DNA of 39,215 nucleotides, taken from NCBI GenBank assembly GCA_030746635.1, contig JASLMH010000023.1:1-39215 (forward strand), read 5' to 3'. Position numbers and translations under genes: made by a program. A model generated the notes under the pieces. It saw nothing but the letters and a program-made list of their open reading frames with translations. It did no database searches and was not told the origin of the DNA. This stretch comes from Alphaproteobacteria bacterium. Lineage in GTDB: Bacteria > Pseudomonadota > Alphaproteobacteria > GCA-2731375. Positions 19,857 through 39,215 of the stretch are shown in pieces (position 1 is the first letter of the stretch; every line of letters starts with the position of its first letter).

Positions 19857-19878
19857 GCCGACGCCCCGCCCGGCCCCG

Positions 19879-20310
19879 TCAGCCGAGGACGCTGTCCGGC
19901 TCGATGCCCTCGACCATGACGCCGTTGGCGTCCTTCGGGTGCACCACCCAGCGGCCGGCCGCGTCCGCCTTGACGGCCGGCCGATGCATCACGGTCATGC
20001 CGCTATCCGCCAGGGCCTTGGCACTGGCGGCGGTATCGCCGACCTCGAGGCAAACGTGATAGAAGCCCTCGCCCTGCCTGGCCAGGCGCCGCGCCAGGGC
20101 GTTGTCCATGTCGTCCTTGTCCAGCGGTTCCATGATTTCGATGGCCATCTCGCCGGGCTTGCCGCTCATGGACATGAATATGCTGCGAACGCCCTCGACC
20201 TCGACATTGATCTCGTCGAACTTCTCGAAGCCGAAAGCGGCGCGCCAGATCTCGCTGGCGGCGTCGGCATCGTGCACCAGAATGCCGATATGGCTGATGC
20301 GATCGACCAT
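19879..20310 (-). CDS. VOC-family (glyoxalase / methylmalonyl-CoA epimerase-like) protein
   Basis: A 143-residue vicinal-oxygen-chelate protein with two beta-alpha-beta-beta-beta modules. Likely metal ligands are His in SHIGILVHD, Glu in MAIEIMEP, His in FYHVCLEV and Glu in GVMVEGIE. The spacing and the YHVCLEV segment resemble methylmalonyl-CoA epimerase more than lactoylglutathione lyase, but no substrate can be named with confidence. The ATG at 20310 has an AGGACAG ribosome site. It is transcribed divergently from dusB. Confidence 0.85.
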   Translation of the reverse strand: MVDRISHIGILVHDADAASEIWRAAFGFEKFDEINVEVEGVRSIFMSMSGKPGEMAIEIMEPLDKDDMDNALARRLARQGEGFYHVCLEVGDTAASAKALADSGMTVMHRPAVKADAAGRWVVHPKDANGVMVEGIEPDSVLG

Positions 20311-20456
20311 GGCTGTCCTCCTACGACCTATCCGGTTTGTCCGGTTGCGCTGGCGGGATGGTAGGGCGTTCCGCCGCCATTGGCCATTATGAACCCATTT
20401 TCCGGGGTTTTTCATTGCCGTCCGCAAGCCGATGGCCTAGTTTGCCCGCGTTTTAG

Positions 20457-20468
20457 GCAAATATTTGC
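20457..20468. promoter_or_regulatory. 12-bp palindrome upstream of the dusB-ntrBC operon
   Basis: GCAAATATTTGC is a perfect palindrome 24 bp before the dusB ATG. It overlaps a second inverted pair, TTTGCC (20441-20446) with GGCAAA (20456-20461). A possible -35/-10 pair, TTGCCG and TAGTTT with 17-nt spacing, lies just upstream, so the palindrome would sit at the transcription start. It does not match the usual NtrC site (GCAC-N5-TGGTGC). Candidate operator only. Confidence 0.4.
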
Positions 20469-20491
20469 AGAATCGTCCTGACGCCTAATTG

Positions 20492-21478
20492 ATGAGCATT
20501 CACCTCGGATCGTTGGTTCTTGAGCGGCCGGTCATCCTGGCGCCCATGTCGGGCGTCTCCGACCCGCCGTTTCGCCGCCTGGTGCGCCGGTTCGGTGCCG
20601 ATCTGGTGGTCAGCGAGATGATCCTGTCGACCGGCGTGGTGATGGACAGCCGGCACTCCCGGGAGCGCGCCGTCTGGTCGGCGGCGGAAGGTCCCCGGGT
20701 GGTGCAGTTGGCCGGCCGCCAGCCGGCGGCGATGGCCGAGGCGGCGCGCCTGAATGAAGATCAGGGCGCCAAGGTGATCGACATCAACATGGGCTGCCCG
20801 GTGAAGAAGGTGATCGGCGGTGCCGCCGGCTCGGCCCTGATGCGGGACGAGGATTTGGCCCTGCGGCTGATCGAGGCGACGGTGGCGGCGGTGTCCATTC
20901 CGGTGACCTTGAAGATGCGCACCGGTTGGGACCTGGCCAGCCGCAACGCGCCGTCGCTGGCGGCCCGGGCCGGGGCCGCCGGCGTCGCCATGATCACCGT
21001 GCACGGCCGCACCCGCAGTCAGTTCTACGAGGGCAAGGCGGATTGGGACTTCATCGCCGCGGTCAAGGCCGCGGCCGGCGTGCCGGTGATCGCCAACGGC
21101 GATGTCTTCACGGTGGACGATGCGGCGGCGATCCTGCGGCGATCGGGGGCCGACGGCGTGATGATCGGCCGCGGTGCCTTCGGCCGGCCGTGGTTTCCGG
21201 GCCAGGTGATGCACTTCCTGGCGCGCGGCGAGCGGCTGGCCGATCCGAGCCTGGCGGAACAGCGCGAGATCGCCGTCGGGCACTATGGCGAGATGCTGCG
21301 GCACTACGGCGCCCATCGCGGCGGCCGCATCGCCCGCAAGCATCTGAACCGGTATCTGGAACGGATCGGCGCCGCCCGCGAGGAGCGGCGGGCGTTGTTG
21401 CGCCTGGAGGAAGGGGACGAGGTGATCGCGCGCCTGCGCGAGAGCTATGACCGGGCCGGCGAGCGGCGGGCCGCTTGA
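20492..21478 (+). CDS. dusB: tRNA-dihydrouridine synthase B (NifR3)
   Basis: This FMN-dependent enzyme reduces uridine to dihydrouridine in the tRNA D-loop. It is 328 residues from the ATG at 20492. The motifs are LAPMSGVSDPPFRRL, NMGCPVKKV with the catalytic Cys, TLKMRTGWD, TVHGRTRSQFYEG and GVMIGRGAFGRPW. In alphaproteobacteria the gene is the classic nifR3, heading the operon with ntrB and ntrC, as here. Its TGA overlaps the ntrB ATG (TGATG). Confidence 0.95.
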   Translation: MSIHLGSLVLERPVILAPMSGVSDPPFRRLVRRFGADLVVSEMILSTGVVMDSRHSRERAVWSAAEGPRVVQLAGRQPAAMAEAARLNEDQGAKVIDINMGCPVKKVIGGAAGSALMRDEDLALRLIEATVAAVSIPVTLKMRTGWDLASRNAPSLAARAGAAGVAMITVHGRTRSQFYEGKADWDFIAAVKAAAGVPVIANGDVFTVDDAAAILRRSGADGVMIGRGAFGRPWFPGQVMHFLARGERLADPSLAEQREIAVGHYGEMLRHYGAHRGGRIARKHLNRYLERIGAAREERRALLRLEEGDEVIARLRESYDRAGERRAA

Positions 21479-22590
21479 TGTCGACGGCGAAAAAAATGGC
21501 CGGCGAGGCGGTGGGGTTCGAATTGACCTCGGAGGCGGTGCTGAACGTTTTTCCCCATCCCATCCTGGTGCTCGGCCCGGACGACGCCGTCGGTTTCGTC
21601 AATCCCGGCGCCGAGCAGTTCTTCGCCACCGGCGCGGCGCAGCTTTGCCGCTCGACGCTGGCCGATCTGGTGCCCTTCGGCAGCCCGGTGATCGAACTGG
21701 TGCGCGAGGCCCGCGAGAACGAAGCGGTGATTTCGGAATACGGCGTCGACCTCGGCACGCCCCGGCTCGGCCAGCGGCTGGTCGACGTCACCGCTTCGGC
21801 CATCGTCGAACGGCCCGGCGCGGTGCTGTTGACCCTGCGGGAAAACAGCATCGCCTCGAAGATGGACCGGCAACTGACCCACCGGGGCGCGGCCCGTTCG
21901 GTCACCGGCATGGCGGCGGTGCTGGCCCATGAGGTGAAGAACCCGCTGAGCGGCATCCGCGGGGCGGCGCAATTGCTGGAACAGAACGCCACGGTCGACG
22001 ATCGGGAATTGACCCGGCTGATCTGCGACGAGACCGATCGCATCGTCGGCATCGTCGAACGCATGGAGATGTTCACCGACAAGCCGGTGCGGCGCGAACC
22101 GGTCAACATCCACCGGGTCCTGGAGCGGGTGCGCAAGGTGGCGGAGAGCGGCTTCGCCAAGGGCATCCACTTCAACGAGGTCTACGATCCCTCGATCCCG
22201 CCGGTGTCGGGAAACTTCTATCTTTTTATCCTGGTGTTCTTGAATCTGGTGAAGAACGCCGCCGCGGCGGCGCCGGCCGAGGGCGGCGAGATCACCCTGA
22301 CGACGGCCTTTCGCCATGGCCTGCGGCTGTCGGTGCCGGGCAGCCGGAACCGGCTGAAACTGCCGATCGAGGTCAGCGTGCGGGACAACGGCCCGGGCGT
22401 GGCCGAGGATCTTCAGCCCTATCTGTTCGACCCCTTCGTTACCAACAAGGCCAGGGGTTCGGGCTTGGGCCTGGCGCTGGTCGCCAAGCTGATCGGCGAT
22501 CATGGCGGCGTCGTCGAATGCGCCGCCGTCGATCGCGGCTGCCTGTTCCGGGTGATGCTGCCGATGGACGAGGGAGAGGAGGACACATGA
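21478..22590 (+). CDS. ntrB: Nitrogen sensor histidine kinase NtrB
   Basis: This soluble kinase/phosphatase of 370 residues controls NtrC in response to nitrogen status through PII. A PAS-type sensor region (about 20-130) is followed by the phospho-acceptor His151 in [20 protein letters not shown]. The ATPase domain has [11 protein letters not shown] (N box), [10 protein letters not shown] (G1) and [13 protein letters not shown] (G2). No membrane helices are seen. It overlaps both neighbours (dusB and ntrC), so translation is coupled. GlnK in this window (33527-33865) is a plausible regulator. Confidence 0.95.
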
Positions 22591-24029
22591 GCCGGGGTAC
22601 CGTTCTGATCGCCGACGACGACCGCGCCATTCGCACCGTGCTGGACCAGGCCCTGGGCCGGGCCGGCTACGAGGTGCGTTCGACCTCGAACGCGGCGACG
22701 TTGTGGCGCTGGGCCAGCGACGGCCAGGGCGATCTGGTGATCACCGACGTGGTGATGCCGGACGAAAACGGCCTCGATCTGCTGCCGCGGATCAAGAAGA
22801 TCCGGCCGGAGATGCCGATCATCGTGATGAGCGCGCAATCGACCATCATGACGGCGATCAAGGCGGCCGAGCGCGGGGCGCATGAATACCTGCCCAAGCC
22901 GTTCGACCTGAAGGAACTGATCAACGTGGTGCAGCGCGCCCTGGCCTCGGCCACGCGCACCCGGGGCACCTCGGCCCGGGCCGAAGCGGCCGACGAGGCG
23001 ATGCCACTGATCGGCCGCTCGGCCGCCATGCAGGATATCTACCGCACCCTGGCCCGGCTGATGCAGACCGATCTGACGGTGATGATCACCGGCGAATCCG
23101 GCACCGGCAAGGAACTGGTCGCCCGCGCCCTGCACGACTACGGCAAGCGGCGCAACGGCCCCTTCGTCGCCGTCAACATGGCGGCGATCCCGCGCGAACT
23201 GATCGAGGCCGAGCTGTTCGGCCACGAGAAGGGCGCCTTCACCGGTGCCGCCGTGCGCAACGTCGGCCGCTTCGAACAGGCCGAGGGCGGCACCCTGTTC
23301 CTGGACGAGATCGGCGACATGCCGCCCGAGGCGCAGACCCGGCTGCTGCGCGTCCTGCAGCAGGGCGAGTACACCACCGTCGGCGGCCGCACGCCGATCC
23401 GCACCAACGTTCGGATCATCGCCGCCACCAACCGCGATTTGCGGCAACTGATCCGCGGCGGCCTGTTCCGCGAGGATCTGTTCTATCGCCTCAACGTCGT
23501 GCCCATGCGCCTGCCGCCGCTGCGCGAACGCACCGAGGACATCCCGGACCTGGTGCGGCATTTCCTGCAACTGGCCGAGGACGAGGGCCTGCCCCCGAAA
23601 CGGATCGCCCGCGACGCCATCGAGCGGCTGCGCGGCTATGACTGGCCGGGCAACGTCCGCGAGTTGGAGAACCTGGTGCGCCGTCTGGCCGCGCTCTATC
23701 CCGAAGAGGTCATCGGCCTGGACGTGGTCGACACCGAGTTGGGCGGCGCGCCCATCGAGACGGGTGCCGGCGGCGGCGATGGCGACAGCATCGGCGGTTC
23801 CGTCGAACGCCACCTGTCCCGCTACTTCACCGCCCACGGCGACGCCCTGCCGCCGGCCGGCCTCTATGGTCGGGTGTTGCGCGAGGTCGAGCGGCCGTTG
23901 ATCGAGCTTTGCCTGGCGGCGACCCGGGGCAACCAGATCAAGGCGGCGCAGTTGCTCGGCCTGAACCGCAATACGCTCAGAAAAAAGATCAAGGAGTTGG
24001 AGATTCAGGTGGTGCGCGGCCTGAAGTGA
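22587..24029 (+). CDS. ntrC: Nitrogen response regulator NtrC (sigma-54 activator)
   Basis: This 480-residue transcription factor activates sigma-54 promoters when phosphorylated. The receiver domain has D54 ([12 protein letters not shown]). The AAA+ domain has Walker A GESGTGKE, the sigma-54-contacting loop GAFTGA (216-221), and Walker B LFLDEIGD. The C-terminus is a Fis-type HTH ([20 protein letters not shown]). The start at 22587 overlaps the ntrB stop (ATGA) and follows GGGAGAGGAGG. Because sigma-54 promoters occur elsewhere in the window, this protein or a relative is a candidate activator. Confidence 0.96.
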
Positions 24030-24093
24030 TGCATAGTTGCAACAGAATCGCTGGATGCCGGTTGACCGGCCCCGCTAGGTAATCCGCCGCGAA

Positions 24094-26373
24094 ATGGTCG
24101 AAACGACAGATCAAACCTGGTTGGAAGTGGCATTTTCCCGACGGTTCGTGCCCTGGGCGCAACGGGTGCGGCTGACCGGCAAGCTGGCCATCGGCCTGGC
24201 CCTGGCGACGGCCGCCTCGGGGGTCGCCACCTATACCGCCTGGACCGGCACGGCGCCGCAGACGCCCAACCCGCGCCTGGTGCTGGGGCTGCTGGTGGTC
24301 GATCTGGTGTTGGTGCTGTCGCTGGGCGCGCTGATCGCCCGGCAACTGGTGCGCTTGTGGGTGGCACGGCGTAGCGGCTCCGCCGGCTCGCGCCTGCACG
24401 GCCGCTTCGTCGCCCTGTTCAGCCTGGTGGCGGTGACGCCGGCGATCATCGTGGCGCTGTTCTCGGCCGTGTTCTTTTACCTCGGCGTGCAGTCCTGGTT
24501 CAGCGAGCGGGTGCGCACGGCGGTGGGCGGCTCGCTGGCGGTGGCCGAGGCCTACATGCAGGAACATCGCCACACCATCCGCGCCGATATCCTGGCCATG
24601 GCCAACGTGGTCGACCGCCTGGACCCCCGGCTGCGGGACAAGCCGGCGGCGCTGTCGCGTCTGTTGGCGATCCAGGCGGCCCGGCATTCGCTCAGCCAGG
24701 CCACGGTGTTCGACGGCAGCGGCAACATCAAGGGCCAGACCTACCTGAGTTTCAGTTCCGCCTTCGACGATCCGCCGCTGGACCGGATCGCCCAGGCCAG
24801 CCGCAGCGATCCGCTGATCTTCACCGGCGGCGCCGACGACGAGGTGCGGGCGCTGATCCGCCTGGACAGTTTTCTCGACGCCTATCTCTACGTCTCGCGC
24901 TTCGTCGATCCGGTGGTGTTGAGCTATGTCGAACGGACCCGCGCCGTGGTCAGCGAATACGAGGCCCTGGAAGGTGCCCGTTCGGACATCCAGCTGACCT
25001 CGGCGCTGATCTTCATCGTCGTTGCCCTGATGCTGCTGCTGGCGGCGATCTGGCTGGGCCTGACCTTCGCCAACCGCCTGGTCGGGCCGATCCGCGGTTT
25101 GATGATGGCGGCCGAGCGGGTGCGCGACGGCGATCTTTCGGCCCGGGTGCCCGAGGGCGACGCCGGCGATGAAATCGGCTCGCTCAGCCGGGCCTTCAAC
25201 CGCATGACCGGCCAACTGGCGGCGCAGCGCGAGGAACTGGTCGAGGCGAACCGGCAGATGGACCGACGCCGCCGCTTCACCGAGGCGGTGCTGTCCGGGG
25301 TCTCCGCCGGCGTCGTCGGGCTGGATGGCGACGGCGTGATCAACCTGCCCAACCGCTCGGCCGCCGAGTTGCTGGAGACCGGTCCGGAAAACCTGATCGG
25401 CAGCCGTTTTGCCGAGGCGGTGCCCGAGATGGCGGCACTGCTGGCCCAGGCCCGCCAGCGCCCGGACCATATCGTCGAGGGACAGATTTCGCTGGTCCGC
25501 AAGGGCCACCGCCGCACTTTCATGGTGCGGGTCAGCACCGACCGCACCCAGCACGACCGCTTCGGCTACGTGGTGACCTTCGACGACGTCACCGAATTGG
25601 TGACGGCGCAGCGGACGGCGGCCTGGGCCGACATCGCCCGGCGCATCGCCCACGAGATCAAGAATCCGCTGACCCCGATCCAGTTGTCGGCCGAACGCCT
25701 GAAGCGGAAATACCTGGCGCAGATCAAGATCGAGCCCGACGTCTTCACCCAGTGCACCGACACCATCATCCGCCAGGTCGGCGACATCGGCCGCATGGTC
25801 GACGAGTTCTCGGCCTTCGCCCGGATGCCGGCGGCGGAGATGAAGAACAACGATCTCTGCGAGATCGCGCGCGACGCCGTGTTCGCCGAACAAATCGCCC
25901 ACGGCGATGTCGACTACCAGATCGATCTGCCGGAGGCGCCTCTGGTCATCCGCTGCGATGCCCAGCATGTCGGCCGGGCGCTGACCAACCTGCTGCGCAA
26001 TGCCGAGGAGGCGATCGACGGCCGGCCGGCGGCGGCGGGCGAGGCATTGCCGGGCGGTCTGATCCGGGTGCTGGTCCGCCGGGACGGGCGCCGGGTCAGC
26101 CTCGAGGTGCGGGACAATGGCCGCGGCCTGCCCGCGGAAGGCCGCGAGCGGCTGACCGAGCCTTATGTGACCCTTCGCGACAAGGGCACCGGGCTGGGCC
26201 TGGCCATCGTCCAGAAAATCGCCGAGGAGCACGGCGCGCGTCTGTACCTTGAGGACGACGAGGGCGGCGGGGCCTGCGCGCGATTGACGTTTGAGATTGC
26301 CGCCGGCGGCCGGGCGAAGACGGTCGCCGACGATGTGACGGAGCAGGGTGGGGTTTCCTCGTATGGCGCGTGA
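24094..26373 (+). CDS. ntrY: Membrane sensor histidine kinase NtrY
   Basis: This 759-residue membrane kinase is the partner of NtrX. Three hydrophobic segments near the N-terminus (about residues 25-130) precede a periplasmic region, and a further helix lies near 305-330. A HAMP domain (about 325-385), a PAS domain (about 395-500) and the HisKA domain with H520 (RRIAHEIKNPLTPIQLSAER) follow. The ATPase domain has NLLRNAEEAI, DNGRGLP and GTGLGLAIVQKI. NtrYX in alphaproteobacteria responds to nitrogen and oxygen/redox conditions. The 64-bp gap after ntrC contains a small GCCGG-CCGGC inverted pair. It overlaps ntrX by 11 bp. Confidence 0.95.
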   Translation: MVETTDQTWLEVAFSRRFVPWAQRVRLTGKLAIGLALATAASGVATYTAWTGTAPQTPNPRLVLGLLVVDLVLVLSLGALIARQLVRLWVARRSGSAGSRLHGRFVALFSLVAVTPAIIVALFSAVFFYLGVQSWFSERVRTAVGGSLAVAEAYMQEHRHTIRADILAMANVVDRLDPRLRDKPAALSRLLAIQAARHSLSQATVFDGSGNIKGQTYLSFSSAFDDPPLDRIAQASRSDPLIFTGGADDEVRALIRLDSFLDAYLYVSRFVDPVVLSYVERTRAVVSEYEALEGARSDIQLTSALIFIVVALMLLLAAIWLGLTFANRLVGPIRGLMMAAERVRDGDLSARVPEGDAGDEIGSLSRAFNRMTGQLAAQREELVEANRQMDRRRRFTEAVLSGVSAGVVGLDGDGVINLPNRSAAELLETGPENLIGSRFAEAVPEMAALLAQARQRPDHIVEGQISLVRKGHRRTFMVRVSTDRTQHDRFGYVVTFDDVTELVTAQRTAAWADIARRIAHEIKNPLTPIQLSAERLKRKYLAQIKIEPDVFTQCTDTIIRQVGDIGRMVDEFSAFARMPAAEMKNNDLCEIARDAVFAEQIAHGDVDYQIDLPEAPLVIRCDAQHVGRALTNLLRNAEEAIDGRPAAAGEALPGGLIRVLVRRDGRRVSLEVRDNGRGLPAEGRERLTEPYVTLRDKGTGLGLAIVQKIAEEHGARLYLEDDEGGGACARLTFEIAAGGRAKTVADDVTEQGGVSSYGA

Positions 26374-27742
26374 TATTCTGATTGTTGACGACGAAGCCGA
26401 TATTCGCGACCTGATCGCCGGCATCCTCAACGACGAGGGCTACGATACCCGGCTGGCCGGCAACGACGCCGAGGCGCTGGCGGCGTTGGCCCATCGCCGG
26501 CCGTCGATGGTCATCCTCGACATCTGGCTGCACGGCAGCGAACTGGACGGTCTGGAATTGCTGCAACGGATCCGTGACGACCATGCCGACCTGCCGGTGG
26601 TGATGATTTCCGGCCACGGCAACATCGAAACCGCTGTTCAGGCCATCAAGCTGGGCGCCTACGACTATATCGAGAAGCCGTTCAAGACGGACCGCCTGCT
26701 GCTGATCGTGCAAAGGGCGATCGAGGCCGCCCGCCTGGCCCGCGAGAACCGGGAGTTGCGGCGGCGGGCCGGCCCGGAGACCGAGATCATCGGCAACAGT
26801 GGCGCCATCAGCGCCATGCGCGCGGTGATCGGCAAGGTGGCGCCGACCGGCAGCCGGGTGATGATCAGCGGCCCCGCCGGCGCCGGCAAGGAAGTGGTGG
26901 CGCGGGCCCTGCATGGCCATTCCGATCGGGGCAACGGTCCCTTCGTGGTCCTGAACGCGGCCACCATGGCGCCCGAGCGGGTCGAGAAGGAGTTGTTCGG
27001 GGTCGAACAGGAGGCCACGGCCGGAGGCGGCGACCGGGTCGGTGTGTTCGAACGCGCCCACGGCGGCACCCTGTTCCTGGACGAGGTCGCCGACATGCCG
27101 ATGGAAACCCAGGGCAAGGTGCTGCGGGTGCTGGTCGACCAGATCTTCCAGCGGGTCGGCGGTACCGGCAACGTATCCGTCGACGTCCGCGTCGTCTGTT
27201 CGACCACCCGCGACCTGCGCGAGGAGATCGCCCAGGAACGATTCCGCGAGGATCTCTACCACCGCCTCAACGTGGTGCCGGTGGCGGTGCCGCCGTTGCG
27301 CGAGCGCCGTTCCGACATCCCGTTGCTGATCGGCCATTTCATGCAGCGCTCGGCGGAGACCCTGGGCCTGTCGCCGCGCCAGGTCTCGGCCGATGCGATG
27401 GCCGCCCTGCAGCGCCACGATTGGCCCGGCAACGTCCGGCAGTTGCGGAATATCGTCGAGCGGCTGTTGATCATGGCGCCGGACGGCGCCGAGGCGATCG
27501 GCGTCGAGATGCTGCCGGCGGAAATCAACGCGCCGACGCCCAGCGCCAACCGCGGCAACGGCGAGCAGGAGGTGATGGGGCTGCCGTTGCGCGAGGCGCG
27601 GGAGATCTTCGAACGCGAGTACCTGGTGGCGCAGATCAGCCGCTTTGGTGGTAACATATCGCGGACCGCCGAATTCGTCGGCATGGAACGTTCGGCGCTG
27701 CACCGCAAGCTCAAGTCGCTGGGCGTGACGACGCGGCCCTAG
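26363..27742 (+). CDS. ntrX: Response regulator NtrX, lacking the GAFTGA loop
   Basis: This 459-residue NtrC-family regulator has a receiver domain with D53 (MVILDIWLHG), an AAA+ domain with Walker A SGPAGAGKE (169-177) and Walker B LFLDEVADMP, and a C-terminal Fis-type HTH (GNISRTAEFVGMERSALHRK). The loop after ELFG reads VEQEATAGGGD (214-224) where sigma-54 activators have GAFTGA, so direct sigma-54 activation is not expected. Degenerate or absent GAFTGA has been noted in other alphaproteobacterial NtrX proteins. The ATG at 26363 lies inside the ntrY end. Confidence 0.95.
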   Translation: MARDILIVDDEADIRDLIAGILNDEGYDTRLAGNDAEALAALAHRRPSMVILDIWLHGSELDGLELLQRIRDDHADLPVVMISGHGNIETAVQAIKLGAYDYIEKPFKTDRLLLIVQRAIEAARLARENRELRRRAGPETEIIGNSGAISAMRAVIGKVAPTGSRVMISGPAGAGKEVVARALHGHSDRGNGPFVVLNAATMAPERVEKELFGVEQEATAGGGDRVGVFERAHGGTLFLDEVADMPMETQGKVLRVLVDQIFQRVGGTGNVSVDVRVVCSTTRDLREEIAQERFREDLYHRLNVVPVAVPPLRERRSDIPLLIGHFMQRSAETLGLSPRQVSADAMAALQRHDWPGNVRQLRNIVERLLIMAPDGAEAIGVEMLPAEINAPTPSANRGNGEQEVMGLPLREAREIFEREYLVAQISRFGGNISRTAEFVGMERSALHRKLKSLGVTTRP

Positions 27743-27768
27743 CCGCCGTCAGGGAGAACAATTCGGCC

Positions 27769-29145
27769 ATGAAGGTCATCGTTTGCGGCGCCGGTCAGGT
27801 CGGCTACAACATCGCGCGCCAGCTTTCCGGTGAACAGAACGATGTGACGGTGATCGATCAGTCGCCGGAAATGATCCGCCGAATCAACGACACCCTGGAC
27901 GCCCAGGGGCTGGTCGGCTTTGCCTCGCAGCCCGATGTTCTGGAGCAGGCCGGCGCCGCCGACGCCGACATGATCATCGCCGTGACCTTCGCCGACGAGG
28001 TCAACATGGTGGCCTGCCAGGTGGCGCATTCCCTGTTCAACGTGCCGACCAAGATCGCCCGGGTGCGGGCGCAAAGCTATCTGCGCGCCATGTGGCGCGA
28101 TCTGTTCAGCCGCGACCACATGCCGATCGACGTCATCATTTCGCCGGAGATGGAGGTGGCGCGGTCGGTCAAGCGGCGCCTGGAAGTGCCGGGCGCCTTC
28201 GGCATGATCCCCTTCGGTGGCGATAGGATGCGGCTGATCGGCGTCCGCCTGCTGGATGATTGTCCGATCGTCGATACGCCGCTGCGGCAATTGACCGAGC
28301 TGTTCCCGGACCTGAACATCGTCGTCGTCGGCATCGACCGCGGCGGCCAGTTGATCGTGCCGAGGGGCGACGACCAGATGCTGTCCGGCGACGAGGTCTA
28401 TTTCGTCGCCGACAGCGGCCATGTCACCCGGGCCCTCAGCCTGTTCGGCCACGAGGAGCAGGAAGCCCGCCGGGTGATCATCGTCGGCGGCGGCAATATC
28501 GGCCTGTTCCTGGCGGAAAACCTGGAGCGCGAGGACCCCGGCGTCCGGGTGAAGGTCATCGAACTGGACAAGAAGCGGGCCGAACACGTCGCCGAACGCC
28601 TGGAACGCGCGGTGGTGATCAACGGCAACGCCCTGGAAAGCGAAATTCTGGTCGAGGCCAACGCCGCCAATACCGAGACGGTGGTCGCCGTGGCCGACGA
28701 CGACGAAGTCAATATCCTGGCCTCGCTGCTGGCCAAGCGGTTCGGCTGCCAGCGCGCCGTGACCCTGATCAACAATTCCGGCTATGGCCCCTTGCTGTCC
28801 TCGCTCGGCATCGACGCCGTCGTCAACCCCCGCATCACCACGGTGTCGACGATCCTGCAGCACGTCCGCCGCGGCCGCATCCGCTCGGTACACAGTTTGC
28901 GCGATGGCGAGGCCGAGGTGATCGAGGGCGAGGCGCTGGAAACCTCGCCCCTGGTGGGCACGCCGCTGCGCGAGGTCAAGCTGCCCGCCGGCGTCATCGT
29001 CGGCGGCGTCCTGCGCGGCGACGACGTGGTCATCCCGCGCGGCGACACGATCATCCAGGTCAACGACCGGGTGATCATCTTCGCCCTGGCGGACGCGGTG
29101 AAGAAGGTCGAGAAAATGTTCTCGGTACGCCTGGATTTCTTCTGA
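27769..29145 (+). CDS. trkA: Trk potassium-uptake regulatory protein TrkA
   Basis: A 458-residue peripheral membrane protein that gates the Trk potassium channel. It is built from two RCK modules. The first NAD(H)-binding fold begins at residue 2 (KVIVCGAGQVGYNIARQL); the second begins near residue 232 (RRVIIVGGGNIGLFLAENLE). Each is followed by a TrkA-C domain (around 140-225 and 370-455). AGGGAGAA precedes the ATG. In alphaproteobacteria trkA typically follows ntrYX, as here, and the membrane partner trkH comes next. Confidence 0.95.
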   Translation: MKVIVCGAGQVGYNIARQLSGEQNDVTVIDQSPEMIRRINDTLDAQGLVGFASQPDVLEQAGAADADMIIAVTFADEVNMVACQVAHSLFNVPTKIARVRAQSYLRAMWRDLFSRDHMPIDVIISPEMEVARSVKRRLEVPGAFGMIPFGGDRMRLIGVRLLDDCPIVDTPLRQLTELFPDLNIVVVGIDRGGQLIVPRGDDQMLSGDEVYFVADSGHVTRALSLFGHEEQEARRVIIVGGGNIGLFLAENLEREDPGVRVKVIELDKKRAEHVAERLERAVVINGNALESEILVEANAANTETVVAVADDDEVNILASLLAKRFGCQRAVTLINNSGYGPLLSSLGIDAVVNPRITTVSTILQHVRRGRIRSVHSLRDGEAEVIEGEALETSPLVGTPLREVKLPAGVIVGGVLRGDDVVIPRGDTIIQVNDRVIIFALADAVKKVEKMFSVRLDFF

Positions 29146-29172
29146 CCGGGCCGGCCAGGAATCAATTCGGTG

Positions 29173-30624
29173 ATGTCCTTTTCCAGCGTTTTCCACTGTC
29201 TCGGCTGGGCCATCGTCCTGTTGGCGGCGCTGATGACCTTGCCGGCCCTGGCGGCGTTACTGAACGGTGATGGGGGACTGGCCTGGACCTTCGCCGCCGC
29301 CGCCGTGCTGAGTGCGTTTTTCGGCATCGGCATCGCCCTGGCGACCCGTCGGACAAGCCTGCGCTTCGAAAAGCGCGAAGGTTTCCTGTTCGCCGTCCTG
29401 ATCTGGGTCGTATTGGCCCTGTTCGGCGCCCTGCCGCTGCATTTCGCCGGCTATCCGGGCGGCGCCGTCAACGCCTTTTTCGAGGCCATCTCGGGCCTGA
29501 CCACCACCGGCGCCACCGCTTTCGAGGAGCTGGCGGCGGTGCCCTCGGCGATCCTGATGTGGCGGGCGCTGTTGCAATGGGGCGGCGGGCTGCTGACCGT
29601 GGTGCTGGCGGTGGTGTTGCTGTCGCACCTTGGGGTCGGCGGCATGGAGCTGTTTCAGAGCGCCCTGCCACGCGGCGAGGGGGCGGCCCTGCCGACCCGG
29701 ATGCTGCAGACGGCGCAGGATCTGTTCTGGGTCTACGTGATCCTGACGCTGCTCTGCGCCGTCGCCCTGTGGGCGGTGGGGATGACCGCATTCGAGGCGC
29801 TGTGCCATGCCTTCAGCACCCTCTCGACCGGCGGTTTCAGCACCCGCGACGGCGGCGTTGCCGCCTTCGACAATCCGCTGGCGGAACTGGTGCTGATGGC
29901 CTTCATGCTGGTCGCGGCGATGAACCTGACCCTGCATTGGGCCGGTTTCCAGGGCCGGTTTCGCGCCTATCGCGACAACATCGAAGTGCACTATCTGTCG
30001 GTTGCCCTGGTCATCCTGGTGATCGCCGCCGCCGGCCTTGGCGTGTGGGCGGAGGAGACCGATTTCCCTGATGGTTTCCGCGGCAGCCTGTTCAACGCCA
30101 TATCGGCCCTGACCACCACCGGGTTCAGCAACGCCGGCGGCGGCGTGCCGATCGGCCTGCCGCCGATCCTGATCATCGGCCTGGTGCTGGTCGGCGGCGC
30201 CGTCGGCTCGACCACCGGCGGCATGCGGATGCTGCGCCTCGCCGTGCTGTTCAAACAGGCCCAAAGGGAATTGCTGCGGCTGTTGCACCCCCATGCCGCG
30301 GTGCCGCTGAAGGTCGGCCCGCGGACGGTGGCGACGACCACGGTATGGGGCGTCTGGAGCCTGTTCTTCGTGCTGATCCTGGCCCTGGCGGCGACCTCCC
30401 TGGTGCTGTCCCTGACCGGCCTGTCGCCCGAGGCCGCCGTCGCCGCCGCCGTCGCCGCCGTCTCCAACGCCGGGCCGTTCCTGCCGGCCATCGAACCGAC
30501 GGCGCCGGCCTATGCCGAGATGAGCGGGACGGCGAAGCTGACGCTGGCGGCGGCGATGCTGGCCGGCCGGGTCGAACTGCTGGCTTTGTTGACCCTGGCG
30601 AACCCGGCATACTGGCGCGACTAG
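29173..30624 (+). CDS. trkH: Trk potassium transporter membrane subunit TrkH
   Basis: This 483-residue membrane protein forms the potassium pathway. Four pore-loop segments are visible: SGLTTTGATAFEE, FSTLSTGGFSTRDG, SALTTTGFSNAGG and AAVSNAGPF, matching the four-fold selectivity filter of the family. The ATG at 29173 is preferred over the in-frame GTG at 29170. It is 27 bp after trkA and the two should act as one transporter. The 95-bp gap downstream contains a strong inverted repeat. Confidence 0.94.
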   Translation: MSFSSVFHCLGWAIVLLAALMTLPALAALLNGDGGLAWTFAAAAVLSAFFGIGIALATRRTSLRFEKREGFLFAVLIWVVLALFGALPLHFAGYPGGAVNAFFEAISGLTTTGATAFEELAAVPSAILMWRALLQWGGGLLTVVLAVVLLSHLGVGGMELFQSALPRGEGAALPTRMLQTAQDLFWVYVILTLLCAVALWAVGMTAFEALCHAFSTLSTGGFSTRDGGVAAFDNPLAELVLMAFMLVAAMNLTLHWAGFQGRFRAYRDNIEVHYLSVALVILVIAAAGLGVWAEETDFPDGFRGSLFNAISALTTTGFSNAGGGVPIGLPPILIIGLVLVGGAVGSTTGGMRMLRLAVLFKQAQRELLRLLHPHAAVPLKVGPRTVATTTVWGVWSLFFVLILALAATSLVLSLTGLSPEAAVAAAVAAVSNAGPFLPAIEPTAPAYAEMSGTAKLTLAAAMLAGRVELLALLTLANPAYWRD

Positions 30625-30670
30625 TGCCGTACCGGCCTAGCCGGGTGGGGAAGCGGGCTGGCCAAGCCGC

Positions 30671-30699
30671 CGCGATCCTGCGATCGAAGCAGGATCGCG
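30671..30699. repeat. Perfect 10-bp inverted repeat between trkH and dat
   Basis: CGCGATCCTG (30671-30680), 9-nt loop, CAGGATCGCG (30690-30699). The stem would be very stable in RNA. No U-run follows, so it is either a non-canonical terminator after trkH, a leader structure ending 20 nt before the dat ATG, or an intergenic repeat. Confidence 0.6.
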
Positions 30700-30719
30700 C
30701 CAACGATAGGAAATCCGCC

Positions 30720-31589
30720 ATGAGCCGCGTCGCTTACGTCAACGGCCGCTATCTGCCGCACCGCGCGGCCAGCGTGCATATCGAGGATCGTGGCTATCAG
30801 TTCGCCGACGGGGTGTACGAGGTGATCGCCGTCGCCGACGGCGCCCTGGTCGATGGCGAATGGCACCTGCAGCGCCTGCGGCGTTCGCTGGACGAGCTGG
30901 CCATGCGGATGCCGATGTCGCCGTCGGCGATGGCGGTGGTGTTGCGCGAGACGGCGCGCCGCAACCGGGTCGACAACGGCATCGTCTATATGCAGGTGAC
31001 CCGGGGCGTGGCCCGCCGGGACCATCCGTTCCCGCCCGCGGCCGTCCGGCCGGCCCTGGTGGTCACCGCCCGCCGCGGCCCGGCCCGGCCGCCGGCGGTG
31101 CTGGATGAAGGCATACGCGTGCTGTCGCTGCCGGATATCCGCTGGCAACGCTGCGACATCAAGTCGGTCTCGCTGCTGCCCAACGTCCTGGTCAAGCAGG
31201 CGGCGCGGGAAGGCGGTGCCTACGAGGCCTGGCAGGTCGACGACGGCGGCTACGTCACCGAGGGCAGTTCGACCAATGCCTGGATCATCGACCAGGACGG
31301 CACCCTGATCACCCGGCCGGTCGAGAACGCCATCCTGAACGGCATTACCCGGCGGCACCTGATCGAACTGGCGCGCGCCGCCGGCATCGCGGTGGCGGAA
31401 CGTCCCTTCACCCTGGACGAAGCCAAGGCGGCGCGGGAGGCATTCATCACCAGCACCACCTCGTACGTGCTGCCGGTGGTGCAAATCGACGACAGCGTGC
31501 TGGGCAACGGCCGGCCCGGCAGCGGCAGCCTGCGCCTGCGGGCGATGTATCTCGATTTCATGGCCGGCGCGGCGGCGGCGACCGCCTGA
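30720..31589 (+). CDS. dat: D-amino-acid aminotransferase
   Basis: A PLP-dependent fold-type IV aminotransferase of 289 residues, likely interconverting D-alanine/2-oxoglutarate and D-glutamate/pyruvate for cell-wall precursors. It has the start VAYVNGRYLPHRAASVHIEDRG, the catalytic Lys in CDIKSVSLLPNVLVKQ, the Glu region VTEGSSTNAWII and the PLP phosphate loop NGITRRHLIELA. Branched-chain aminotransferases are related, but the GYQFADGVYEVI segment fits D-AAT. AGGAAA precedes the ATG. In related genomes this gene lies between the ntr/trk genes and hfq. Confidence 0.9.
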   Translation: MSRVAYVNGRYLPHRAASVHIEDRGYQFADGVYEVIAVADGALVDGEWHLQRLRRSLDELAMRMPMSPSAMAVVLRETARRNRVDNGIVYMQVTRGVARRDHPFPPAAVRPALVVTARRGPARPPAVLDEGIRVLSLPDIRWQRCDIKSVSLLPNVLVKQAAREGGAYEAWQVDDGGYVTEGSSTNAWIIDQDGTLITRPVENAILNGITRRHLIELARAAGIAVAERPFTLDEAKAAREAFITSTTSYVLPVVQIDDSVLGNGRPGSGSLRLRAMYLDFMAGAAAATA

Positions 31590-31703
31590 ATAGCCGGTCG
31601 CGGCGGGCGATCACTTCATCGGCATTTACCCTCTTGCCGATTGGCGTGGCGACCCCATCTGACTTATTACTAGAAGGTTGGCGCACTATTCAAAGCGGAA
31701 CGG

Positions 31704-31721
31704 GACCGGGTTGTCCCGGTC
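31704..31721. repeat. Short hairpin in the hfq leader region
   Basis: GACCGGG (31704-31710), loop TTGT, CCCGGTC (31715-31721). It lies in the 224-bp gap upstream of hfq. The rest of the gap holds only weak promoter-like hexamers (for example TTGGCG and TTATTA, 17 nt apart, near 31643-31671). Hfq is autoregulated through its leader in some bacteria; no direct evidence for that here. Confidence 0.4.
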
Positions 31722-31813
31722 GTTCGCGTGCGCCCGCCGCATCAACACCGCCGCCAACGGCCGCGACGGCGTTGCAATAACCATAACCGGAGCCGAACAA
31801 CCTGGAGCCCAAC

Positions 31814-32068
31814 ATGGCAAACGAAAAACAAAACGTTCAGGACGTCTTTCTCAACCACGTCCGCAAGGCGAAGACCCCCGTCACCGTGTTCCTGGTAAAC
31901 GGCGTAAAACTGCAGGGTTTCATCTCTGGCTTTGACAATTTCTGTGTCCTGCTGCGGCGTGACGGCCATGTGCAGCTCGTCTACAAACACGCGATCTCGA
32001 CGGTGATGCCGGCCCAGCCGATCCAGCTTTACGAGGCCCAGGCCGAAGAGGCTGAAGCGCCGGCGTGA
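31814..32068 (+). CDS. hfq: RNA chaperone Hfq
   Basis: An 84-residue Sm-like protein forming hexamers that pair small RNAs with mRNAs. It has the Sm1 motif ([39 protein letters not shown]) and the Sm2 motif [10 protein letters not shown]. The C-terminal tail is short (about 18 residues, Glu/Ala-rich), as usual in alphaproteobacteria. Its stop overlaps the GTG start of hflX by 4 bp (GTGA), the classic hfq-hflX arrangement. Confidence 0.97.
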
Positions 32069-33399
32069 GCAAACCCGACGGGCACGACTGGGCCGCCGAA
32101 AGCCGCCGTGCCCTGATCCTCCATCCCCACGGCAAGGCCGCCGGCCCGGCCCGGCGGCGCCTGCCCGAGGCGCGGCTGGAGGAAGCCGCCGGACTGGCGG
32201 CGGCCATCGGCCTGCAAGTCGTGCGGGCGGAGACCGTGACCCTGGCGCGGCCCCGGCCGGCCACCCTGCTGGGCGCCGGCAAGGTCGATGAATTGCGGGC
32301 GCCGATCGCCGCCGAGGAGATCGAGGTGGCGATCATCGACGGCCAATTGACGCCGATCCAGCAGCGCAACCTGGAACGGGCCTGGAACTGCAAGGTGATC
32401 GACCGTACCGGCCTGATCCTGGAGATCTTCGCCGAACGCGCCCGCACCAAGGAAGGCCGCCTGCAGGTCGAGTTGGCGCAATTGACCTATCAGCGCAGCC
32501 GCCTGGTGCGCTCCTGGACCCATCTGGAACGGCAGCGCGGCGCCCTGGGAGCGGTCGGCGGTCCCGGCGAGACCCAGATCGAGGCCGACCGGCGGATGAT
32601 CGACGACCGGGTGGTTCGCCTGCGCCGCGAGTTGGACGAGGTTACCCGGACCCGCGAACTGCACCGCAAGACCCGCCGCGACGCGCCCTATCCCGTGGTC
32701 GCCCTGGTCGGCTATACCAATGCCGGCAAATCCACCCTGTTCAACCGCCTGACCGGGGCCGAGGTGACGGCCCAGGATCAATTGTTCGCCACCCTGGATC
32801 CGACCATGCGGGCGGTCGGGATGCCTGGCGGCGGTCGGATCATCCTGTCCGACACCGTCGGTTTCGTCTCCGATCTGCCGACCCACCTCGTCGCCGCCTT
32901 CCGCGCCACCCTGGAGGAGGTGCTGGAGGCCGACGTCATCGTCCATGTCCGGGACATCGTGCATGCCGACAGCGAGGCCCAGAAGGACGACGTGCTGGAC
33001 GTCCTCGCCGATCTGGGTGTCGATGTGGCGGCCCGCGAGGCGATTGTCGAGGTCTACAACAAGATCGACCTGGCCGGCCCCGACGACCGCCAGCGGGTGG
33101 CCAACCAGGCCGCCCGGACGCCCTTGGCGGTGGCCCTGTCGGCGATCACCGGCGAGGGCTGCGAGCGGCTCCTGGAATTGATCGGCCGGCGCCTGTCCCT
33201 ACGCCACCAGGTCGTGGAACTGACGATCGACGCCGGCGACGGCGCTACCCTGGCCTGGCTGTACCGGGTCGGCGAGGTGCTGGAGCGCGAGGACCGCCGC
33301 GGCACGGCCCGCCTGCTGGTCAGCCTCGACCCGGCCAACCTCGGCCGCGTGCGCAAACGCCTGAACCTGCCCGACGATTTGGCGGCGGCGGCGGAATAG
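32065..33399 (+). CDS. hflX: Ribosome-associated GTPase HflX
   Basis: This 444-residue GTPase splits or rescues stalled ribosomes, notably under heat stress. The N-terminal HflX domain has the conserved [18 protein letters not shown] near its end. The G domain has G1 [10 protein letters not shown]3 [10 protein letters not shown] and G4 NKID. A C-terminal domain follows to residue 444. The GTG start overlaps the hfq stop. Directly after the stop lies a 43-nt perfect palindrome that could end the transcript. Confidence 0.95.
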
Positions 33400-33407
33400 G
33401 GTTTGTC

Positions 33408-33450
33408 GGTATTTTCGGGGACAGGATTTAATCCTGTCCCCGAAAATACC
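33408..33450. repeat. 43-nt perfect palindrome between convergent hflX and glnK
   Basis: Two perfect 21-bp arms surround a single T at 33429. The left arm starts GGTATTTTCGGGGACAGG and the right arm (33430-33450) is its exact complement. It begins 9 bp after the hflX stop. The CGGGGACAGGATT core resembles repeats often seen near REP-associated transposases in proteobacteria. It may act as a bidirectional transcript end; the A/T-rich bases at the stem base (TATTTT / AAAATA) would help. Confidence 0.75.
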
Positions 33451-33473
33451 TATGCCCGAAATTACCCTTCGTC

Positions 33474-33496
33474 ATTGCCGGGCCTGACCCGGCAAT
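33474..33496. repeat. Palindromic repeat copy 3 (9-bp arms, 5-nt loop)
   Basis: ATTGCCGGG (33474-33482), loop CCTGA, CCCGGCAAT (33488-33496). It differs from the copy at 14267-14289 only in one loop base, and the flanking TC and CTCG are shared. It lies just downstream of glnK, 24 bp from the 43-nt palindrome. Confidence 0.75.
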
Positions 33497-33526
33497 CTCG
33501 CGCAACCCAATTCGATCTATACCTAC

Positions 33527-33865
33527 CTACAGCGCCTCGTTGTCGGATTCGCCGGTGCGGATGCGCAAGGCGCTGCCCAGGTCGTAGACGAAGATCTTGC
33601 CGTCGCCGATCTGGCCGCTGTTGGCGGCCTCGCGGATCGCCTCGACCACCCTTTCCGCCAAATCGTCCGAGACCGCCACCTCCAGCTTCATCTTGGGCAC
33701 GAAATTGATCTGGTACTCGGCGCCGCGATAGATCTCGGTATGGCCGCCCTGGCGGCCATAGCCCTTGACCTCGGTCGCGGTCAGGCCGTGCACGCCGATC
33801 GCCGTCAGGGCATCGCGCACCTGGTCCATCCGATGCGGTTTGACCACCGCCATGATCATCTTCAT
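33527..33865 (-). CDS. glnK: Nitrogen regulatory PII protein GlnK
   Basis: This 112-residue trimeric signal protein reads 2-oxoglutarate, ATP/ADP and glutamine status and blocks AmtB when nitrogen is plentiful. The T-loop is intact (GRQGGHTEIYRGAEY, with uridylylation Tyr51), and residue 54 is Asn (EYQINF), as in GlnK rather than GlnB. It is downstream of amtB on the same strand with a 40-bp gap, the reverse of the usual glnK-amtB order. It may also control NtrB activity. Confidence 0.95.
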   Translation of the reverse strand: MKMIMAVVKPHRMDQVRDALTAIGVHGLTATEVKGYGRQGGHTEIYRGAEYQINFVPKMKLEVAVSDDLAERVVEAIREAANSGQIGDGKIFVYDLGSALRIRTGESDNEAL

Positions 33866-33905
33866 CGTCCGCCCTCCAGTTGCCTATCGCTCATGGCCCG
33901 GCCGC

Positions 33906-35207
<1,302 letters not shown>

Positions 35208-35264
35208 GACACCCCCTCCGACCTTTCCGGTCTTGTTGGCACGGCCCGGACGGGCCGAATCAGT

Positions 35265-35295
35265 CGTAATGATACGTAATTTTGCCGATGTCGGC
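35265..35295. promoter_or_regulatory. Tandem CGTAAT repeat and small palindrome upstream of amtB
   Basis: CGTAAT occurs twice, at 35265-35270 and 35275-35280, one helical turn apart. It is followed by GCCGA-TG-TCGGC (35284-35295). They lie 58-88 bp before the amtB start. The region should contain the amtB-glnK promoter. A -24/-12-like sequence further upstream has 11 nt rather than 10 between GG and GC, so I do not call a sigma-54 promoter. Confidence 0.35.
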
Positions 35296-35301
35296 AGGTT
35301 T

Positions 35302-35577
35302 TCACGCCACCCTGGGCAATGGGGCGGCGAAGCGGCCAACGAACGCCGGGGCCGCCTCCCGGGCCCGTGGCGTGGCGCCGCCGAAAATGATCGGCGGATG
35401 CGGCCGTTGCACCGGCTTGGGGTAGCAGATGATGTCCTTGAACTCGACGAAATCACCATTCTGACCGGCTTTCTCATGATTCCATATTTCCTTCATGAAT
35501 TCAGTATGTTTCGCCAATAATTTAAAGTGGTTTTTGAAGTTGATGCCATGGTTCTCCATCTCCTCGGCGTTCCAGCC
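35302..35577 (-). pseudogene. Remnant of an LLM-class flavin-dependent oxidoreductase
   Basis: The minus strand encodes GWNAEEMENHGINFKNHF, then FMKEIWNHEKAGQNGDFVEF and YPKPVQRPHPPIIFGGATP. These are hallmark segments of the bacterial-luciferase-like (F420/FMN) oxidoreductases, from the middle of the about 290-residue family. The N-terminal 100 or so residues and the C-terminal 90 are missing, and the frame ends in unrelated sequence at a TGA at 35302. A recognisable internal fragment without ends is a decayed gene. Base composition here is slightly more AT-rich than in the neighbours. Confidence 0.75.
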
Positions 35578-37171: not shown

Positions 37172-38200
37172 ATGGGCAAACTGGTGACCCTGGCCGGGCT
37201 GTTGAGCACCCGGCTGCCCGAGGGGCTGATGGCGGTTTGGCAGACCGGCCGGCGGGAGACCTCCGGCCATCGGGTGATGGACCCCAAGGCCCAGGCGGTC
37301 GGCCGTTTCAGCCTGCTGGTGCGGGTGCCGGGCTATATCCCCACGGTGCCGGAGACGCGGGCCCAGATGCAGACCATCGTGCGCGTCCTGGACGAAGGCC
37401 CACCGCCCCTGGCCCGCCGCGAGGATCGCACGATCCCGGGCCCGCATGGCGACATCCCCGTGCGCATCTACGATTCGGTGGCTGACGGCACCGACCGGCC
37501 GATGCTGGTCTACCTGCACGGCGGCGGCTGGGTACAGGGGGACCTGGATACCCACGACGGCATCTGCGGCAAACTGGCCGCCTGGGCCGACTGCCTGGTG
37601 GTGGCGGTGGACTACCGCCTGTCGCCCGAGCACAAGTTCCCGGTGCCGGTAGAGGACGCCCATGCCGCCTACCTCTGGCTGCAGTCCCACGCGGCCGAGC
37701 TGGGCGGCGATCCGAACCGGGTGGCGATCGGCGGCGACAGCGCCGGCGGCAACCTCTCCGCCGTGGTCTGTCAGTTGACGGCGCAAGCCGGCGAGGGGGT
37801 GCCGCACGGCCAGGTGCTAATCTATCCGGCCACCGATGCCCGCCTGGGCAGCGCCTCCCACGCGGAGATGCGGGAGGGCTACATCATCCCGCGCGAGCGG
37901 GTGGACTGGTACATGGAGCAGTACCTGAACGGCGAGCAGGACCGCCTCGACCCGCGGGTCTCGCCGCTGTTGACCGAGGATCTCTCGGACCAGCCGCCGG
38001 CCCTGGTGGTCACCGCCGGTTTCGACCCCCTGCGCGACGAGGGTCAGCAATATGCCGAGCGGCTGCGCCAGGGCGGCGTGGCGGTGACGGAACTGCCCTA
38101 TGACGGGCAGATCCACGGCTTCGTCTCCATGTGCAAGGCCATCCCCCAGGGCAACCAGTGCATCCACGGCATCGCCGAGTGGCTGCGCGGCCGCTGGTAG
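37172..38200 (+). CDS. HSL-family alpha/beta-hydrolase (esterase/lipase)
   Basis: A 342-residue carboxylesterase of the hormone-sensitive-lipase type. The oxyanion-hole motif is YLHGGGW (His116). The nucleophile is Ser190 in GGDSAGGNL. The Asp is in AGFDPLRDEG and the His in GQIHGFVSM. The substrate is unknown, but family members hydrolyse short acyl esters. GGGAGGA precedes the ATG at 37172; the frame is open 15 codons upstream but lacks a ribosome site. The 226-bp gap before it is shared with the divergent PEP-CTERM gene. Confidence 0.92.
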   Translation: MGKLVTLAGLLSTRLPEGLMAVWQTGRRETSGHRVMDPKAQAVGRFSLLVRVPGYIPTVPETRAQMQTIVRVLDEGPPPLARREDRTIPGPHGDIPVRIYDSVADGTDRPMLVYLHGGGWVQGDLDTHDGICGKLAAWADCLVVAVDYRLSPEHKFPVPVEDAHAAYLWLQSHAAELGGDPNRVAIGGDSAGGNLSAVVCQLTAQAGEGVPHGQVLIYPATDARLGSASHAEMREGYIIPRERVDWYMEQYLNGEQDRLDPRVSPLLTEDLSDQPPALVVTAGFDPLRDEGQQYAERLRQGGVAVTELPYDGQIHGFVSMCKAIPQGNQCIHGIAEWLRGRW

Positions 38201-38210
38201 GGGGACGCCG

Positions 38211-38657
38211 TTGCGCCGCCTGTTGCCCGTTCTGTGCCTGCTGGCGTTCGCCGCGGCCGCCCTGGCCGCTGGCGGCGTCAACCTCGCCACCGTGGTCACC
38301 AACGATGGGCATCACCCCTTCCGGGTGGAGATCGCGGCGACGCCGGGGCAGCAGGCCCGGGGCCTGATGTACCGCCAAGAGATGGCCGCCGACGCCGGCA
38401 TGCTGTTTTTGTTCCCTGACGACCGCGTCCTCAGTTTCTGGATGAAGAACACCCTGATCCCGCTGGATATGCTGTTCCTGGCCGCCGACGGCCGTATCGT
38501 CCATATCCACCCGCGCGCGGAGCCGCTGTCCCTGACCCCGATCCGCTCGCCCGGCCCGGCCCGGGCGGTGCTGGAGATCAACGGCGGCCTCAGCCAGCGC
38601 CTGGGCATCAGGGCCGGCGACCGGGTCGAACACCCGGCCTTCCGCCGGGGTGGCTAG
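38211..38657 (+). CDS. DUF192 secreted protein
   Basis: A 148-residue protein of unknown function with a signal peptide (MRRLLPVLCLLAFAAAALA) and the DUF192 core: RGLMYRQEMAADAGMLFLF, SFWMKNTLIPLDMLFL and the closing GGLSQRLGIRAGDRV. The start is TTG at 38211, chosen because GGGGGA lies 5 nt upstream and the signal peptide begins there. The gene is 10 bp after the esterase, so probably in one transcript. Confidence 0.88.
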   Translation: MRRLLPVLCLLAFAAAALAAGGVNLATVVTNDGHHPFRVEIAATPGQQARGLMYRQEMAADAGMLFLFPDDRVLSFWMKNTLIPLDMLFLAADGRIVHIHPRAEPLSLTPIRSPGPARAVLEINGGLSQRLGIRAGDRVEHPAFRRGG

Positions 38658-38731
38658 GCAGCGGAGGAGGGCCGAAGGGCGGCCAATCGGCCCTTGAGGT
38701 CGCCGGGCGAAACGCCTACCTTGCCGCCGAC

Positions 38732-38770
38732 CGGGGAGTGGCGCAGCTTGGTAGCGCATCTGCTTTGGGA
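38732..38770 (+). tRNA. 5' half of tRNA-Pro(UGG), interrupted in the anticodon arm
   Basis: The sequence has the acceptor 5' strand CGGGGAG, D-arm GCGCAGCTTGGTAGCGC and anticodon arm TCTGC plus loop TTTGGGA, giving anticodon TGG (proline). An intact gene would continue GCAGA to close the stem. Here TCTTA follows, and no T-arm, acceptor 3' strand or CCA is found in the next 100 bp. The match stops exactly after the anticodon loop, next to an integrase gene, so the tRNA gene was split by integration. Confidence 0.8.
38763..38770 (+). other. Probable attL core of an integrated element
   Basis: The last tRNA-like bases, CTTTGGGA, lie in the anticodon loop, a common crossover site for tyrosine integrases. 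Everything to the right belongs to the element. The matching attR with the tRNA 3' half should lie outside the window to the right. Confidence 0.55.
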
Positions 38771-38788
38771 TCTTAGGACTGCCCAGCA

Positions 38789-39215
38789 TTAAGCTTTTCC
38801 CTTCAAGGGCTTGGCACCCGGTTCGGTTTCCTGCCTTGGGTTATCTTGGGACTGCACGGCTTCCATCGCCGCCAACACATCGTCTTTCAGCGCATGGGCG
38901 TACCGGGCTGTCGTTGTGATGTCCTGGTGCCCCAACATCCGCTGTACTGCCTTCAGGTTTTTGGATGCCCTGAGCGTCCGTGTGGCGGCCGTGTGACGAG
39001 TATCATGGAACCGGAAGTCTTCGATGCCGGCGGCCTTCAATGCAGCCTTCCAAGGCCGTCGCCAGCCTGACTGGGAGAAGGGGTAGCATTCGCCCTTCCG
39101 GCGCTTGCCACGACTACGGGCGCAAACGTAAGTAAAGACGAAGATACCCACCATGTTCATATCCTGGAGATGAATGGCGAGAGCTATCGTCTCAACCAAA
39201 GCCGAAAACGGCGGA
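38789..39215 (-). CDS. Tyrosine-recombinase integrase, C-terminal part (runs off the window)
   Basis: At least 141 residues of a phage/island integrase, open to the window edge. Catalytic signatures are HDTRHTAATR (His and Arg), LGHQDITTTARYAHAL (second His and nucleophile Tyr). The segment VFTYVC and AGIEDFRFHDTRH match phage-type site-specific integrases. The catalytic domain's first Arg and the N-terminal core-binding domain lie beyond 39215. Its stop is 18 bp from the split tRNA, the usual place for an integrase that used that tRNA as its attachment site. Confidence 0.9.
   Translation of the reverse strand, partial: PPFSALVETIALAIHLQDMNMVGIFVFTYVCARSRGKRRKGECYPFSQSGWRRPWKAALKAAGIEDFRFHDTRHTAATRTLRASKNLKAVQRMLGHQDITTTARYAHALKDDVLAAMEAVQSQDNPRQETEPGAKPLKGKA

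Follow-up and report, generated by a model that had tools for sequence, protein, structure and literature searches.

The window analyzed here is a complete contig (C155, 39215 bases) of an alphaproteobacterial metagenome-assembled genome (MAG), and at its right end a tRNA-Pro(UGG) gene is broken beside an integrase gene of phage type. The 5' half of the tRNA gene, nucleotides 1-39 up to the last base of the anticodon loop, occupies positions 38732-38770 on the plus strand (CGGGGAGTGGCGCAGCTTGGTAGCGCATCTGCTTTGGGA) and is 97.4% identical over 39 nt to nucleotides 1-39 of intact tRNA-Pro(UGG) genes from genomes of its class (E 2e-13). The loop itself, TTTGGGA (38764-38770, plus strand), is the presumed 7-bp crossover or overlap segment; element identity stops at the loop edge in relatives, and the segment is inverted in the 3'-type relatives described below. 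The host gene breaks directly after it, at a known integration subsite. From the crossover to the integrase stop codon run 18 bp of element DNA (38771-38788, no strand assigned), identified as the integrase-side core arm by comparison of core arms. The stop codon lies at 38789-38791 on the minus strand, and the open reading frame (ORF; 38789-39215, minus strand) runs off the contig end, where the N-terminal part is lost. The remaining 141 C-terminal amino acids match PF00589 (E 2.4e-17) and the PHROG integrase families phrog_216 and phrog_1, confirming a tyrosine integrase at the element end, and their translation keeps the catalytic motifs H-R, H and Y as HDTRH, GHQ and RYAH. The element portion present amounts to 445 bp.

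The original prediction, that an element sits in the anticodon loop of tRNA-Pro(UGG) and leaves the gene unrestored on its left, integrase side, is supported on both counts. The 5' half is followed by TCTTAGGACTGCCC, from which the anticodon stem cannot be rebuilt, and ARAGORN finds no tRNA in the window. In more than 30 other loci a homologous integrase has a tRNA 5' half at 6-50 bp from its stop codon, and this excludes a chance origin of the junction. A group I type intron or a split tRNA could also account for an interruption in the anticodon loop, but no Rfam intron family is matched other than by chance hits and the next gene is a phage integrase, not a homing endonuclease, so that such an origin is vanishingly improbable. 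The displaced fragment is the 5', upstream half. Conventional elements carry a 3' half that restores the tRNA at the integrase side, and the join in the window might be a later deletion within such an element or its degraded remnant. Elements that displace a 3' fragment make up 3,760 of 3,919 known islands in tRNA genes (tDNA) (PMC4383910), and more distant homologues of the integrase (L103, L111, L152) have a complete tRNA beside them. In the window, however, no tRNA 3' half, nor any remnant of one, lies between the loop and the integrase stop, and the join falls exactly at the loop edge, 18 bp from that stop, as in intact phage attachment sites (attP). A decayed conventional element is highly unlikely on these grounds.

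Both ends of a related element can be read in G029 (contig C2), a genome of the same class and another family, whose integrase is 55% identical over the shared part and belongs to the closest complete relative. Beside this integrase is a tRNA-Pro 5' half, placed and oriented as in the window. At 49.8 kb from the integrase junction stands a complete tRNA-Pro(UGG) gene with tRNA-Arg after it; G001 and G003 have the same order of tRNA-Pro and tRNA-Arg without such a repeat. The two junctions of G029 share an exact 66-bp direct repeat composed of 26 bp of upstream sequence, with the -10 box TAGTTT, and 40 bp of the tRNA, and it stops at TTTGGGAG, the loop edge. Beyond the repeat the -35 box is kept (TTGCAT versus TTGCAA), the 17-bp spacer has diverged, and nothing farther upstream matches. 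Judged from the sequences, a kept -35 box beside a diverged spacer is the pattern that would be expected from selection on a promoter borne by the element. Genes for terminase, tail sheath, baseplate, major head protein, RecT and endolysin mark the interval as a myophage prophage. A second relative, the 55.9-kb provirus G479, has a tRNA 5' half at both ends. No close relative of G029 with the upstream flank was found in a search for the empty site, and two class-wide integrase searches gained few extra genomes.

The original prediction also called for a restored copy at the other junction, and G029, with its complete tRNA, and G479, with its two 5' halves, support this. Its expectation that the right attachment site (attR) would appear as a tRNA 3' half does not fit these relatives: by analogy with G029, the repeat would consist of the 5' half with the -10 box, and attR would be a complete tRNA. 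On the same analogy, a restored tRNA-Pro(UGG) very probably exists at the other junction of the element in the window.

Two other loci at this tRNA gene were met among the genomes. In a same-family genome (L123, G001:C2:1-2600), a complete tRNA-Pro(UGG) is directly preceded by a tandem array of three tyrosine recombinase genes. These genes are 32-37% identical to the G029 integrase, apparently without its N-terminal part, and the contig begins inside the third; this is possibly an element of the recombinase-trio kind or a different element's restored end at this target site. L064/L156 (G021:C305:98-136) is a further tRNA-Pro(UGG) 5' half that gives way to unrelated DNA; it sits at the beginning of a 3-kb contig and has no adjacent integrase.

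The unintegrated form of such elements is seen in circular phage records. Viral contigs were scanned with an alignment of the relatives' integrases and a degenerate tRNA pattern, and the sequence abutting the integrase stop was then inspected; scan P0002 of the viral contigs gave no matches. A tRNA 5' half abuts the integrase stop, forming an attP, in Sphingopyxis phage VSN-002 (Pro-UGG), Rhizobium phage RHph_I3_18 (Pro-GGG) and Synechococcus phage Yong-M3-232 (Val-UAC), and likewise in the phage-like Rhizobium leguminosarum plasmid pSK06 (Pro-GGG). The layout, as in VSN-002, is promoter, tRNA 5' half and integrase, and the attP of close relatives carries about 40 bp of the tRNA 5' half. In viral contig L173 the half tRNA is flanked on its other side by a phage gene, for PAPS reductase. 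Homologous integrases of phiLM21, ppBdUSDA122-1 and ppBeUSDA76-1 have no tRNA half directly at their stop.

Three of these viral records call for comment. The gene annotated as a telomere resolvase in VSN-002 (L285, MZ127829.1:14717-15835) is really a tyrosine integrase beside a tRNA-Pro attP. In Yong-M3-232 (L286, OM868076.1:22233-27598) the integrase belongs to the window's clade and the tRNA-Val(UAC) 5' half is 94% identical to proteobacterial-type tRNAs in the set; its recorded cyanobacterial host may, to judge by this likeness, not be the true one. Near the end of viral contig L276 (IMGVR_UViG_3300036520_000007) a tRNA-Pro(UGG) 5' half does not abut the stop of the related integrase, because another ORF and about 580 bp intervene.

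Of 32 testable loci, 22, among them every Pro-type locus, have a sigma-70-like skeleton (TTG-N3-N16..18-TA) no more than 55 nt upstream of the half, by a scan that is a pattern match and in which the promoters at the left attachment site (attL) of the window and of G029 are the host's own and some viral-contig flanks could be host DNA too. Dinucleotide shuffles give an expectation of 1.2 loci, with 6 as the largest value in 1000 shuffles, and the skeleton is upstream of none of 14 control loci of the opposite, 3' type. The putative native tRNA promoter in the window (38694-38722, plus strand) has its -35 box TTGAGG at 38694-38699, a 17-bp spacer and its -10 box TACCTT at 38717-38722, a pattern and spacing common to other tRNA-Pro loci; a generic scan of the window for consensus promoters and terminators flagged nothing, this promoter included.

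Two forms occur at the integrase stop within the clade. In 38 loci, some of them redundant, a tRNA 5' half is convergent with the integrase, and in 17 a 3' half is co-directional with it; tRNA-Pro(UGG) occurs in both. In the direction of the integrase, the 5' type has the core TGC-TTTGGGA-GCA and the 3' type TGC-TCCCAAA-GCA; similar arms flank a 7-bp loop that is inverted from one type to the other. A tree of 46 integrases requires at least 4 changes between the two states; these changes are forced by strongly supported branches and also in the bootstrap trees. Both states are found within one well-supported clade of Pro-UGG phages and again within one well-supported clade of Pro-GGG phages; therefore the elements have changed their orientation with respect to the tRNA without a change of target. 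With moderate confidence, we propose that the anticodon stem-loop, with its dyad symmetry, serves this clade of phage integrases, mainly from Alphaproteobacteria, as a docking site that is reversible. Inversion of the attP overlap (TTTGGGA to TCCCAAA) between near-identical arms, together with a swap of the tRNA half, would flip the direction of integration in the same tRNA gene, and the 5'-half state would be viable only through the attP promoter, so that the lysogen's sole tRNA-Pro(UGG) would stand under a promoter supplied by the phage.

The end of the window is very likely the left, integrase-side junction of a temperate-phage-like element that was integrated by its tyrosine recombinase at the anticodon loop of tRNA-Pro(UGG), and whose far end supplies the 5' half anew, with a promoter of the element, and so completes the tRNA. 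The attP of the element would comprise a promoter, the tRNA 5' half and the loop, followed by the integrase end, and its integrase side, as in other attPs of the 5' type, would hold no tRNA sequence. The integrase would cut at the edges of the anticodon loop. Strand exchange there would strand the host promoter and 5' half beside the integrase, the arrangement seen in the window. At the integrase-distal end the element's promoter and 5' half would be joined to the host 3' half (GCAGA...CTCCCCGACCA) into a complete gene, as seen in G029, and we infer the same far end for the element in the window. The rebuilt tRNA would then be transcribed from the element's promoter.

Several observations weigh against this proposal. 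Restoration of the tRNA is seen in relatives and not for the window's element itself: the far junction and the right part of the element, with its cargo, were sought in the MAG and are absent, and the whole MAG has no intact tRNA-Pro(UGG). In the Val-type relatives the promoter pattern is mostly not found. The window's integrase is of the 5' type, and its C-terminal fragment is too short for firm placement on the tree (weak support).

The MAG comprises 5.08 Mb in 306 contigs and is 83% complete with 3% contamination. The tRNA-Pro count and the 3'-half search proposed with the original prediction gave, over the whole MAG, tRNA-Pro genes for CGG and GGG with none for UGG, and no tRNA-Pro(UGG) 3' half. 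The claim that UGG is necessary for all proline codons was too strong, given the GGG and CGG tRNAs in this genome, and holds at least for CCA. By the decoding rules tRNA-Pro(UGG) is required at least for that codon, and because CCA would be poorly read without it, a full tRNA-Pro(UGG) gene is expected in the missing part of the MAG.

The unrestored left junction and the lack of an intact tRNA-Pro(UGG) in the MAG would also be accounted for if the tRNA had been destroyed for good and a complete tRNA-Pro(UGG) inside the element substituted for it, as in the tRNA-dependent lysogeny of mycobacteriophage Fionnbharth (PMC10865867), and one relative (L361) does have a complete tRNA-Pro near its integrase. 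Such lysogeny is disfavoured because no complete tRNA-Pro, halves only, is present in the records of 23 relatives. In addition, attP and the bacterial site (attB) share just about 10 bp in that system (PMC10865867), against the roughly 40 bp of tRNA 5' half carried by close relatives, and G029 restores the gene. We regard it as improbable here.

The DNA left of the junction is ordinary host DNA. A DUF192 ORF (COG1430; 38100-38657, plus strand; PF02643, E 1.3e-34) lies directly upstream of the tRNA gene, and in G003, G030, G049 and G058, of the same class, DUF192 likewise precedes tRNA-Pro by 0.5-4 kb on the same strand. A hydrolase gene lies here too, and ispDF, ntrY, trkA and an ammonium transporter gene lie farther to the left. 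These last four lie in 18690-35477, a chromosomal context where no mobile-element genes were met among the ORFs scanned. That the window is a whole MAG contig ending within the integrase, in an assembly of 306 contigs and 3% contamination, invites the suspicion of a chimera in which host DNA was misjoined to an unrelated phage contig. Had the contigs been misjoined at random, the join would not have hit the exact crossover base and the family's usual distance to the integrase stop. Host attB could have been misjoined to a free phage attP through the 39-bp half that they share, yet this would still imply such a phage. A chimeric assembly is accordingly very improbable.

If the proposed integration is correct, an element can cut a CCA-reading tRNA gene and leave the integrase end unrestored without killing its host, because it brings a promoter and the front half of the gene; the lysogen's supply of tRNA-Pro(UGG) would then depend on viral DNA. 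The clade offers matched natural pairs, with the same tRNA, related integrases and opposite orientation, for the question of what sets the direction of integration by tyrosine recombinases. Island finders based on tRNAs, and counts of tRNA genes, need to take in 5' halves next to the integrase as well as complete genes at the opposite end. No description was found in an open-access library of an attP consisting of a promoter and a tRNA half with core-orientation switching in one phage integrase clade, or of a bacterial attP that carries a promoter.

Integration centered on the anticodon corresponds to subsite A of Williams 2002, as worded in PMC8371274 and in Islander (PMC4383910). The window belongs to a class that is known but rare, the islands with a 5' tDNA fragment, which number 159 of the 3,919 in Islander (PMC4383910). 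It shares with them a tyrosine integrase, crossover in the anticodon loop, a displaced 5' fragment and the expectation of a restored tRNA at the other end. It differs in that the element copy of its Pro-type relatives has a complete, dedicated promoter and in that 5' and 3' types, with an inverted core, occur side by side in its clade; its own restored end is unseen. The integrase of VSN-002 (MZ127829.1) is 57.5% identical to that of the window over the shared part, and the attP of this phage holds a promoter and a tRNA-Pro(UGG) 5' half whose end is 9 bp away from the integrase stop region; unlike the window, VSN-002 is a free circular phage genome with no integrated junction. An island in tRNA-Arg(UCU) of Ancylobacter dichloromethanicus (NZ_JAHBGC010000020.1) has a related integrase (37% identical to that of G029) and a crossover in the anticodon loop, with a displaced 3' half by the integrase, a complete tRNA 47.4 kb away and a 48-bp repeat. 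Its orientation is opposite to that of the window, and its repeat is the 3' half, so that the native promoter is kept. Lysogeny of the Fionnbharth type (PMC10865867) resembles the window in a tRNA gene broken at the junction read first, and combines a short shared core with a whole carried tRNA, whereas the relatives of the window carry half a tRNA and rebuild the gene. The pTN3-like integrases of Thermococcales (archaea), seldom met in bacteria, work with the 5' half, and the integrase promoter then drives the restored tRNA gene (PMC8371274). A suicidal integrase of this type was considered for the window and rejected, as the att site is not inside the integrase gene, whose stop lies 18 bp within the element. 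In pTN3-type integration, as in that proposed for the window, the upstream half and the promoter come from the element. Only in the pTN3 type is the tRNA driven by the integrase promoter and the integrase gene split by integration; in the window the integrase ends beside the crossover, convergent with the tRNA, and the promoter is of tRNA type.
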